Shown piece by piece: positions 1,929 through 9,513 of a stretch of DNA of 64,000 nucleotides. Location of the stretch: positions 1 to 64,000 of the forward strand of contig JAPUIA010000139.1 of assembly GCA_027297435.1 (NCBI GenBank), written 5' to 3'. Made by a program: the position numbers and the translations under genes. The stretch is from Gammaproteobacteria bacterium. GTDB taxonomy: Bacteria > Pseudomonadota > Gammaproteobacteria > Pseudomonadales > Azotimanducaceae. The notes beneath the pieces were generated by a model. It made no database searches. It was not told the origin of the DNA and was given only the letters and a program-made list of their open reading frames with translations. Each line of letters starts with the position of its first letter. Within the stretch, counting starts at the first letter, position 1.

Positions 1929-3029
1929 ATGATTATCGACAACCTGACCATCGACAAAGACGCTTTCGAAGCCGGAACCGGTTGGCAGCTGAAGGCAGAG
2001 GGGGCCTGCAAGGGTGATGTGTGTATACCGTTGCCCGGCGAACCAGGCTCCACCGTAGACGCCCAGCAGCTTGCGGACCTGATGGGGCTTCCCGTCGTCC
2101 ACGACAAAGCCCATGGATTGTGGTCCATCGGTCCCGAATCTACGGGTGCTCGGGCACTCACGACCGCCCAAGCCCCCGATCTGCAACTGCCCGATCTCGA
2201 CGGCAACGTCTTCCACTTGGCTAGCCTGACGGGTCAGAAAGTCATCGTTTACGCCTGGGCCCCCTACTGAGGCTGTTCCGGGGATCTGCCCGTGTGGCGG
2301 AAACTACGCGATGAACTGCATCCGAAGGGTGTGGAACTGGTCACCGTCGGACTCGATGCGCTCGGCGCCGAAGGCTGCCGGCCTTTCATCGAAGCCGCCG
2401 AACCGACGCACCCGTCGCTCATCGATCAACATCACGTGTTGGCCCGCTTATTTGGCGTCATCAACATCCCCAGCAGCATCTGGATCGACGAGGCCGGCAT
2501 GATTGTGCGGCCAGCCGAAGTCGCGCCCGCCCCACCAAAACCCGATGCGCCATCTGCGCCGCCTGACATGCCTGCGGAAATGCCCGGGCGATTCAAAGCC
2601 ATGATGAGTGAAGTCGTGAACATGCCCAACGACACCGAGCCCTACCATGAAGCGCTCAACGACTGGGTCGAGAAAGGCGCGGACAGCGACTATGCGTTGT
2701 CTCCCGAGCAGGTAGTCGAGCGATCGCGCCCGCGTACGGCGGACATCGCGCGCGGGCATGCTCACTTCGAACTCGCCACGCATCTGGAAACTCGAGGTGA
2801 CCATGAGGCCGCCGTCGGGCACTACCGTGAAGCGCATCGCCTGGTACCGAATAGCTGGACGTTCCGTCGTCAGGCTTGGTCGTTGGAAGGCGGCATCGAC
2901 GGACCAATGACTCGATTCTGGCAAGGCCCCTCAGACACAGACCCGGATGCGTGGCCTTACGAAGGCGATTGGTTGACCGATATCCGTCGCGAAGGCGCGG
3001 AAAATTACAACGAGCGCTTCAAAGCCTGA
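1929..3029 (+). CDS. TlpA/ResA-like thioredoxin-fold selenoprotein candidate (366 aa, Sec at codon 114, UGA 2268-2270)
   Basis: ORFs 1929..2270 and 2292..3029 are in the same frame and separated only by one TGA. The joined protein ...APDLQLPDLDGNVFHLASLTGQKVIVYAWAPY-U-GCSGDLPVWRKLRDELHPKGVELVTVGLDA...LARLFGVINIPSSIWIDEAG is a continuous thioredoxin fold with U at the position of the first redox Cys. Confidence 0.82.
2285..2301 (+). promoter_or_regulatory. Candidate bacterial SECIS hairpin
   Basis: UCUGCC-CGUGU-GGCGGA: 6 bp stem (one G.U), 5 nt loop with G at position 2; loop starts 20 nt after the UGA. Confidence 0.55.
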
Positions 3030-6332: not shown

Positions 6333-7418
6333 ATGGGCTGCCGAAACGTTTTCGCTTTTCCAGCTCTCTGTTCGCTGCTCTATGCCGTACTGAGTTCTTC
6401 GTACGTATCCGCCGAGAGCTTTAGCTTTGTTGCGCTGGGCGATACCGCTTACAACCCGCCAGCAGACTATCCGGCGTACCGAGCCCTGATTGAACGCATA
6501 AACTCCGCGAAGCCTGCGTTTACCATTCATGTGGGTGATACATGGGGCATTCTCGACTGCAGTGACGCTGAGCACGAGCGCATTCGCGACTTTTTCCAGG
6601 AGTACGATCATCCGGTAATCTACACGCCTGGTGACAATGAGTGGATAGACTGCCTGATCCCCGATGCGGTTCCTCGCGCGCAGCGTATTGTTTCAGGCAC
6701 GCCGACTGATCAAGACATCGCCGTCCTCAACGACGCTCGTTCTCTAGACGGTGCATACGAACGTCGCGTCTGGGTCGACGGACAGCAAAGTCTCACGGCG
6801 ATTCGCAGGATCTTCTTCGGGACCCGCCAAAGTCTTGGGCAAAAGCCTATTGCCTTGACCCGGCAGGCAGATGTTTCCGGCTTCAACGAGATGGTCGAAA
6901 ACGCGCTTTGGGAATACGGCGACGTCCAGTTTGGAACCGTTCATGTACCTGGATCGGGTAACAACTTCTTCATCAACAGTCGAGAACACGCCATCGAAGC
7001 CATCGCTCGCAACCGCGCGAATGTCGAGTGGATCAAGCAGATCTTTGCCGAGGCCAGATCCAACGATTCGAAGGCGGTTGTTATCGCATTGCACGCTTCA
7101 TTGTTCGAGGATGGCCCGGGAGGCGACTTCACCGGCCAGGCCGTTCGAGGCGGAGAGACGGGCCCATTCTATTGGATAGCGTTGGCGATCCGAGATCTTG
7201 GCGCTGACTTTGATCGCCCGGTGCTGTTGGTGAATGGTGACTTCCACGAGTTCGTAGTTGACCGACCCTTCATGGTCTCCGCTGGTGAGAGCGCTCCTCC
7301 AAGATACGCAAACATTACCCGACTGCAGGTACACGGAGCCCCGGAGATCAAAGCCGTTCGGGTGACGGTGGACACAAAGACCCCGTGGGTGTTTGGCTTC
7401 TCGCCCCTGCACAACTGA
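6333..7418 (+). CDS. Secreted calcineurin-like metallophosphoesterase
   Basis: Signal peptide; FVALGDTAYN, HVGDTWG, PGDNEW, VNGDFHEF motifs. Confidence 0.75.
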   Translation: MGCRNVFAFPALCSLLYAVLSSSYVSAESFSFVALGDTAYNPPADYPAYRALIERINSAKPAFTIHVGDTWGILDCSDAEHERIRDFFQEYDHPVIYTPGDNEWIDCLIPDAVPRAQRIVSGTPTDQDIAVLNDARSLDGAYERRVWVDGQQSLTAIRRIFFGTRQSLGQKPIALTRQADVSGFNEMVENALWEYGDVQFGTVHVPGSGNNFFINSREHAIEAIARNRANVEWIKQIFAEARSNDSKAVVIALHASLFEDGPGGDFTGQAVRGGETGPFYWIALAIRDLGADFDRPVLLVNGDFHEFVVDRPFMVSAGESAPPRYANITRLQVHGAPEIKAVRVTVDTKTPWVFGFSPLHN

Positions 7419-7435: not shown

Positions 7436-9415
7436 CTACGGCAACGCCAACGTCGTGTGCAGGCTACCGGTCTGCAACACCACGTACTGCTTGTTTTCGT
7501 GAACATAGGTCATCATTCCGTAGCGAACACGCGCGCCGATTTCCACCTTGCCGACCTGCTCGCCGGTCGATTTATCGACGGCGAATAGATGCGGCGTGCC
7601 ATCGCTCGCCGTAGACGCATACATCAAGAGCGTGTCCGTCACCATCAAGGGCGGTGCCGCACCCGTGCCCGTGTTCGGAATGTCCATGTCTTTGAGATCC
7701 GGATGGTTCAACACGCGGTCGGGGGTTTCTCCTGCAGGGATGTACCACAGGTGCTCGCCCGTGTTCATGTCGATGGCCGTGATGCGACTGTAAGGTGGTT
7801 TGAACAGCGGTAGGTTGTCAGGTCTCCGCACCCCAGCAGATCGCAGCGCCGCGTATCGGGCAATGCGCGATCCAGTCGGCTCGGCGAGCAGATCGTCGCG
7901 TTCTCGACCTGGTGCAATGACACGCGTCGTGCAGTTGGTTCGCGAGGGTACGTACAACACACCCGAGTTGGGATCGGCGGCGACCGGCGCATCGATGTTG
8001 ACACCGCCAACATCGCCGGGACACCACAGCGAGCCTTGCAGTTTCTCTTCGTTATCGCGGTGCAACGGTGGTTGGAACAACGGCCCCGTATCCCATTCCT
8101 TCAATATGTCGATCGCGGCTTGGCGAAGCCCCGGCGTGTAATCGATGAGATCGTCATGGGTTAGCCCCTGAATGTCGTAGGGTGCCGGCTTGGTTGGAAA
8201 AGGCTGAGTCTTCGCGAGCTTTTCACCGGGAATTTTCGATACGGGCACCGGCCTCTCGACGATCGGCCACAGCGGTTCGCCCGTGACCCGGTTGAACGCA
8301 TAGATAAACGATTGCTTGGTGGCCTGTGCGACGATCGGCACGGTCTTGCCATCCATCACGACATCCAACAAGACCGGCGCGGTCGGCGTATCGTAGTTCC
8401 AGATGTCGTGGTGCACCATCTGGAAGTGCCAGAGGCGCTTGCCGGTGTTGACGTCCAGCGCAATCAAACTCGTGCTGAACAGATTGTCTCCGGGACGGTG
8501 GCCGCCATAGAAGTCGAGGGTCGCACCGTTGGTCGGGATGTAGACGATGCCACGCTCTTGGTCGGCGGACAGCGGCGCCCAAGACGAAATGTCCCCCGTC
8601 CATTGCCAGGCCTCGTCTTCCCAGGTGTCATGGCCGAACTCGCCGGGGCCCGGCAGCACGTTGAACTTCCACAGAAACTTACCCGTGCGAGCGTCATAAC
8701 CCAGTATGTCACCGGGTATGTTTTCGATGCGCGACTGGTTATACCCCTGCTCGGCCGAATTGCCGACGATGATGACGTCGCCAACGACGATGGGGGGCGA
8801 AGACGAGGTGATGTAGCCCCGTTCCAGGTCGATGCCATCGTAGGCGTCATATGGGTGGCCAAGATCGGCCAATAAATCGACGACGCCGGTCTCCGGGAAC
8901 CCATCGACGGGCACCCGTTTGCCAAAGCCTTCCAGCGGCTGGCCGGTTTTGGCGTCCAACGCGGTCAAGAAAAAGGCTGGTGAGATGATGTAGATAATGC
9001 CGCGACCGTCGATCTCGGCATAGGCGACGCCCTTGCCATAGTCCTTGCGCATGGAGTATTCCCAGCGGCGCGTATTGGGCTCCCGATAGGTCCACAGGGT
9101 TTCGCCCGACTTGGGATCGATGGCGACGACGTAGCGGCGCGGACCGACCACCGTGTACAGGACGCCATCTACGTAGCTCGGCGTCGATCGACCGCTTCGC
9201 GCGTCGAAGCTCGCCCCGTCCCACACCCAAGCCTCTTCCAGGTCGTTGAAGTTCGAGGCATCGATCTGATCCGCAGGCGAATAGCGGGTGTGCGCCGAGT
9301 CGCCGCCTAGGTAGTGCCACCGCCCATCCTGGGTGCCAGGCGCCGCCGCCAAGGCAGCGGTGGTCGCGGCAATCAGGCAAGCGGCCAACGCCAGGGATTC
9401 ACCAACTCTTCTCAT
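7436..9415 (-). CDS. PQQ-dependent (quinoprotein) dehydrogenase, glucose dehydrogenase-like
   Basis: Repeated W-motifs (GETLWTYR, GKFLWKFN, GKRLWHFQ, GEHLWYIP); WHYLGGDSAHTRYSPADQI; signal peptide from MRRVGESLAL. Confidence 0.9.
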   Translation of the reverse strand: MRRVGESLALAACLIAATTAALAAAPGTQDGRWHYLGGDSAHTRYSPADQIDASNFNDLEEAWVWDGASFDARSGRSTPSYVDGVLYTVVGPRRYVVAIDPKSGETLWTYREPNTRRWEYSMRKDYGKGVAYAEIDGRGIIYIISPAFFLTALDAKTGQPLEGFGKRVPVDGFPETGVVDLLADLGHPYDAYDGIDLERGYITSSSPPIVVGDVIIVGNSAEQGYNQSRIENIPGDILGYDARTGKFLWKFNVLPGPGEFGHDTWEDEAWQWTGDISSWAPLSADQERGIVYIPTNGATLDFYGGHRPGDNLFSTSLIALDVNTGKRLWHFQMVHHDIWNYDTPTAPVLLDVVMDGKTVPIVAQATKQSFIYAFNRVTGEPLWPIVERPVPVSKIPGEKLAKTQPFPTKPAPYDIQGLTHDDLIDYTPGLRQAAIDILKEWDTGPLFQPPLHRDNEEKLQGSLWCPGDVGGVNIDAPVAADPNSGVLYVPSRTNCTTRVIAPGRERDDLLAEPTGSRIARYAALRSAGVRRPDNLPLFKPPYSRITAIDMNTGEHLWYIPAGETPDRVLNHPDLKDMDIPNTGTGAAPPLMVTDTLLMYASTASDGTPHLFAVDKSTGEQVGKVEIGARVRYGMMTYVHENKQYVVLQTGSLHTTLALP

Positions 9416-9513
9416 CCAGCCTCCCGGATCGTCTGCGGCAAGCGCGCGATCATAGCATTGCCAAACGTCGTACATGCGGTATCGTCACCGTTGGATTCTT
9501 CGGAGGGGCGCAA

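Follow-up and report, generated by a model that had tools for sequence, protein, structure and literature searches.

Selenoproteins that combine a pfam00578 domain with a UGC motif were described in 2008, when 46 of them were reported from the Global Ocean Sampling selenoproteome as 'Prx-like (UGC-containing)' proteins (PMC2398784). The UGC-containing Prx-like/TlpA family was listed again in PMC9312934 and PMC13188914 under the wording 'UGC-containing TlpA disulfide reductase family protein', and the tables of all three papers assign it no function. NCBIfam holds a curated model, NF041054 (WAxxUGC_long), with the name 'ResA-like WAxxUGC motif-containing protein'. The gene analysed here lies on the forward strand at positions 1929-3029 of a 64-kb window (the whole stretch of gammaproteobacterial DNA under study), and the original prediction had read it as encoding a TlpA/ResA-like selenoprotein. 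Its product belongs to this selenoprotein family: it shares the pfam00578 domain and the UGC motif with the published proteins, a likeness drawn from their description, and it agrees with NF041054 in motif, UGA position and full-length match, with no difference that matters. Since the family is curated as NF041054 and described in PMC2398784, PMC9312934 and PMC13188914, the window protein is of a known kind and does not found a new family. We put the probability of the combined assignment, i.e. predicted selenoprotein and member of NF041054, at about 0.95.

The gene, annotated from its read-through frame, homology and model, starts with the ATG at 1929 and ends with the TGA at 3027-3029, and the frame is broken only by the TGA at 2268-2270. 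Read through, it has 366 codons with the UGA as codon 114 in the motif WAPYUGC; the coordinates, the frame and the placing of the second cysteine two residues after U had been given correctly before. Frame geometry as such is weak evidence, because about 20 TGAs in the 64-kb window are flanked on either side by 110 or more open codons. The codon-114 UGA stands above this chance level because homology extends over the full length of the protein across the UGA and because the UGA is conserved in homologues. Against NF041054 the read-through protein scored 501.4 bits (cut-off 300, E 1.5e-150), the match covering residues 1-365 and model positions 1-353/354, with the family motif present as WAPY-TGA-GC; identity to the compared long-form members was 55-69%. 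An N-terminal cap is followed by a ResA-like thioredoxin domain (about residues 80-200) and a helical, TPR-like C-terminal domain. For the latter, which had also been noticed earlier, the Pfam match is weak (PF13428, E 0.0026, below its cut-off), while profile matches to TPR structures speak for it. Mechanical ORF calls would instead give two separate proteins, a truncated one of 113 aa and an ORF from the GTG at 2292. That GTG is merely the first one past the UGA, the break would cut the thioredoxin domain through its active site, and the hairpin and the selenocysteine machinery described below fit readthrough. With the joined frame being conserved, we rejected the two-gene reading as very improbable.

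Evidence against a broken gene comes from the homologues. In a search with one genome per species, TGA, and no other codon, was found at the aligned position in all 31 complete, independent homologues, which was the comparison proposed in the original prediction, and the frame stays open for roughly 240-250 codons past it in each of them. These proteins are mostly 57-69% identical to the window protein (one 42%) and come from genomes labelled Pseudomonadota, Acidobacteriota and Actinomycetota. Likewise, among 58 related genomes 11 of the 12 matches above the NF041054 cut-off contain one TGA. The twelfth (L083, in genome G012) has TGC instead, giving WASWCGC, and clusters with L064, a UGA form, in a tree with long branches. 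This cysteine form, near position 3384 of L083 (G012 contig C130), is without the SECIS-like hairpin, and the same genome also carries a UGA form. Its occurrence in a related genome is what can be said for a nonsense mutation or sequencing error that split an ordinary cysteine gene; but such a pseudogene hardly agrees with a UGA conserved across phyla, with the open frame beyond it and with selenocysteine machinery in the host, and we rejected it as highly unlikely. In a class-wide sample of 274 genomes no further family member was found at E 1e-60, so the family appears patchy within the class.

The host genome (4.22 Mb in 311 contigs) encodes the components for selenocysteine insertion: selA, selB, selC and selD, on whose presence the original prediction had made its reading depend, were all found. 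The tRNA-Sec (70.9 bits, anticodon TCA) has selB directly upstream, selA lies upstream of selB, and selD is located elsewhere. All of them are on other contigs, and scans of the window with Rfam and for tRNAs returned nothing. The selA of the host falls in two parts, one at an end of contig C64 and the other at an end of C187; we take this for an assembly break, because the overlapping protein parts agree save for small differences near the contig end. The selD gene (L050, G000 contig C130:7698-8597) sits in an open frame of 729 aa, which could be an NDH-SelD fusion as described in PMC2398784. Of the 58 related genomes, 20 have a UGA member, and selB was present in 19 of these versus 18 of the 38 others (Fisher p 4e-4, not corrected for relatedness). 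Neither selB nor tRNA-Sec was detected in G026, a genome with UGA members that is 91% complete in 550 contigs, which probably stems from its incompleteness. The tRNA-Sec also argues against a genome-wide reassignment of UGA to an amino acid, the other way in which an in-frame UGA could be read through. Moreover, 12 of the 19 genes checked in the window stop at TGA, which makes it the commonest stop codon there, and TGA also terminates the selenoprotein gene itself. On this stop usage we rejected an altered genetic code, the least probable of all explanations considered.

A hairpin that starts 15 nt past the UGA provides a candidate recoding signal. Its stem pairs 2285-2290 with 2296-2301 around the loop CGUGU (2291-2295), and the whole element (2285-2301, forward strand) agrees with what established SelB work has shown for bacterial SECIS. 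The case for it is made by pairing, compensatory changes, shuffles and synonymous constraint. The covariation set comprised 28 distinct sequences of the UGA subfamilies and excluded those of WSSWUGC type and near relatives; in it, 99.4% of the cells were paired and two stem pairs had changed on both sides, from C-G to U-A. The covariation score was 0.272, a value reached in 0 of 500 shuffles (mean 0.196), and slid versions of the stem gave at most 0.112. When all 49 distinct sites were considered, the inner four pairs were kept in 49/49 and the outer two in 39/49 and 41/49. The loop occurs as CGUGU, CGGGU, AGGUU or AGUUU, with G/U in the loop as in bacterial SECIS. Furthermore, the Leu codon at +6 ends in G in all 38 members of the long subfamily, compared with 59% of Leu codons in the rest of these genes, and 36 of the 38 have CCC at codon +7. 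In the cysteine homologue L083 both the hairpin pattern and the loop are lost. When the 51 nt that follow the UGA were folded as single sequences, the window sequence included, the optimal structures were mixed, and the hairpin hence rests on the comparative evidence. Together with the selenocysteine genes of the host and the TGA in homologues, this covarying SECIS-like hairpin bears out the selenoprotein reading.

In its structure the window protein comes closest to ResA/TlpA (PDB 1st9, 2f9s, 1jfu), with which it has in common the thioredoxin fold, the conserved Pro loop and, with U in its place, the position of the first cysteine. The AlphaFold model (pLDDT 92.7, pTM 0.91) found ResA as its best PDB match (Foldseek E 1.3e-10, TM to target 0.76). 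In the profile alignment with ResA and 3kcm, U114 occupies the position of the first CxxC cysteine, where the UGA had been placed from the start, and C116 that of the second; the stretch between them is one residue shorter. Hence, the window protein differs from ResA/TlpA by having UxC, one residue shorter than CxxC or UxxC. It further differs by an extra N-terminal domain with C27 and C32, by the TPR-like C-terminal domain and by the lack of a signal peptide. Cys27 (2007-2009), Cys32 (2022-2024), U114 and Cys116 (2274-2276), all encoded on the forward strand, are invariant in an alignment of 36 sequences. Since its N-terminus is not hydrophobic, and thus the export or membrane-anchor feature of ResA/TlpA is absent, the protein is probably cytoplasmic.

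What such a protein does can be predicted with less certainty than its selenoprotein nature. A thiol-disulfide oxidoreductase acting through a U-x-C selenenylsulfide is rated most likely, with a peroxidase next, and we hold the reductase function to be somewhat better than an even bet; it is not assured because proteins of the ResA fold do not usually have a UxC spacing. A selenoprotein of the peroxiredoxin or glutathione peroxidase kind seems possible but clearly less probable. The top Pfam models, AhpC-TSA and Redoxin, both spanning the UGA, point in that direction, as do the literature name Prx-like (PMC2398784) and the resemblance of U-G-C to the UG of glutathione peroxidase, in which Sec is likewise followed by Gly. 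However, the GSHPx similarity is below its cut-off (E 0.019, 15 bits versus 27) and far weaker than the match to ResA, ResA/TlpA-type reductases come out on top in both the structural and the profile comparison, and U occupies the first-Cys place of CxxC. In the preferred reading, UGA codon 114 is almost certainly read as selenocysteine by SelB with Sec-tRNA, directed, as sequence and covariation suggest, by the hairpin at 2285-2301. According to alignment and model, the selenocysteine stands in for the attacking cysteine of the ResA/TlpA-type fold, and it would most likely attack a disulfide, oxidised thiol or peroxide substrate. Cys116, matching the second Cys of the ResA-type CxxC, would be the resolving partner in a U-x-C selenenylsulfide, and a relay through the Cys27/Cys32 pair may follow.

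The gene context points to no substrate, because the neighbourhood is not conserved: comparison of homologous loci revealed no conserved partner gene. An NmrA-like NAD(P)-binding protein is encoded 15 bases upstream on the same strand (1029-1913), and neither this linkage nor the sulfatase neighbour of the window is shared with homologous loci. A PQQ dehydrogenase was found nearby in 10 loci, but genes of this type are common and their distances vary. The window has its own PQQ-dependent dehydrogenase at 7436-9475 (PF01011, 554 bits); in several Acidobacteriota loci a homologue of it lies near the selenoprotein gene, at differing distances. The 361-aa ORF at 6333-7418, with a likely signal peptide, reads like a metallophosphoesterase-type protein, but neither Pfam nor NCBIfam gave a match for it at E 0.001.

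The host contains a second UGA paralogue (L084:3422-4540, G000 contig C205) with the motif WASWUGC and a hydrophobic, signal-peptide-like N-terminus. Its NF041054 score of 262 bits falls short of the cut-off (300), and together with its WSSWUGC relatives it spans a sub-threshold range of 235-262 bits; no better family was found for these paralogues among the other NCBIfam models. A C-terminal fragment nearly identical to this paralogue at a contig start (L098:1-320, G000 contig C311) represents a near-copy or else reflects strain variation within the assembly. One may speculate that the family is wider than the curated model, with WASWUGC signal-peptide and WSSWUGC paralogues of another N-terminus in genomes that also encode the cytoplasmic form, and that these together would form a two-compartment selenocysteine redox relay via C27/C32 and UxC, an idea that we regard as rather doubtful at present. 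With paralogues falling below the threshold, annotation pipelines may still be overlooking part of the family. The window protein itself represents a well-supported added member, with recoding signal and machinery, of a catalogued selenoprotein family, and the case shows how a broken-looking UGA gene can be separated from a pseudogene.
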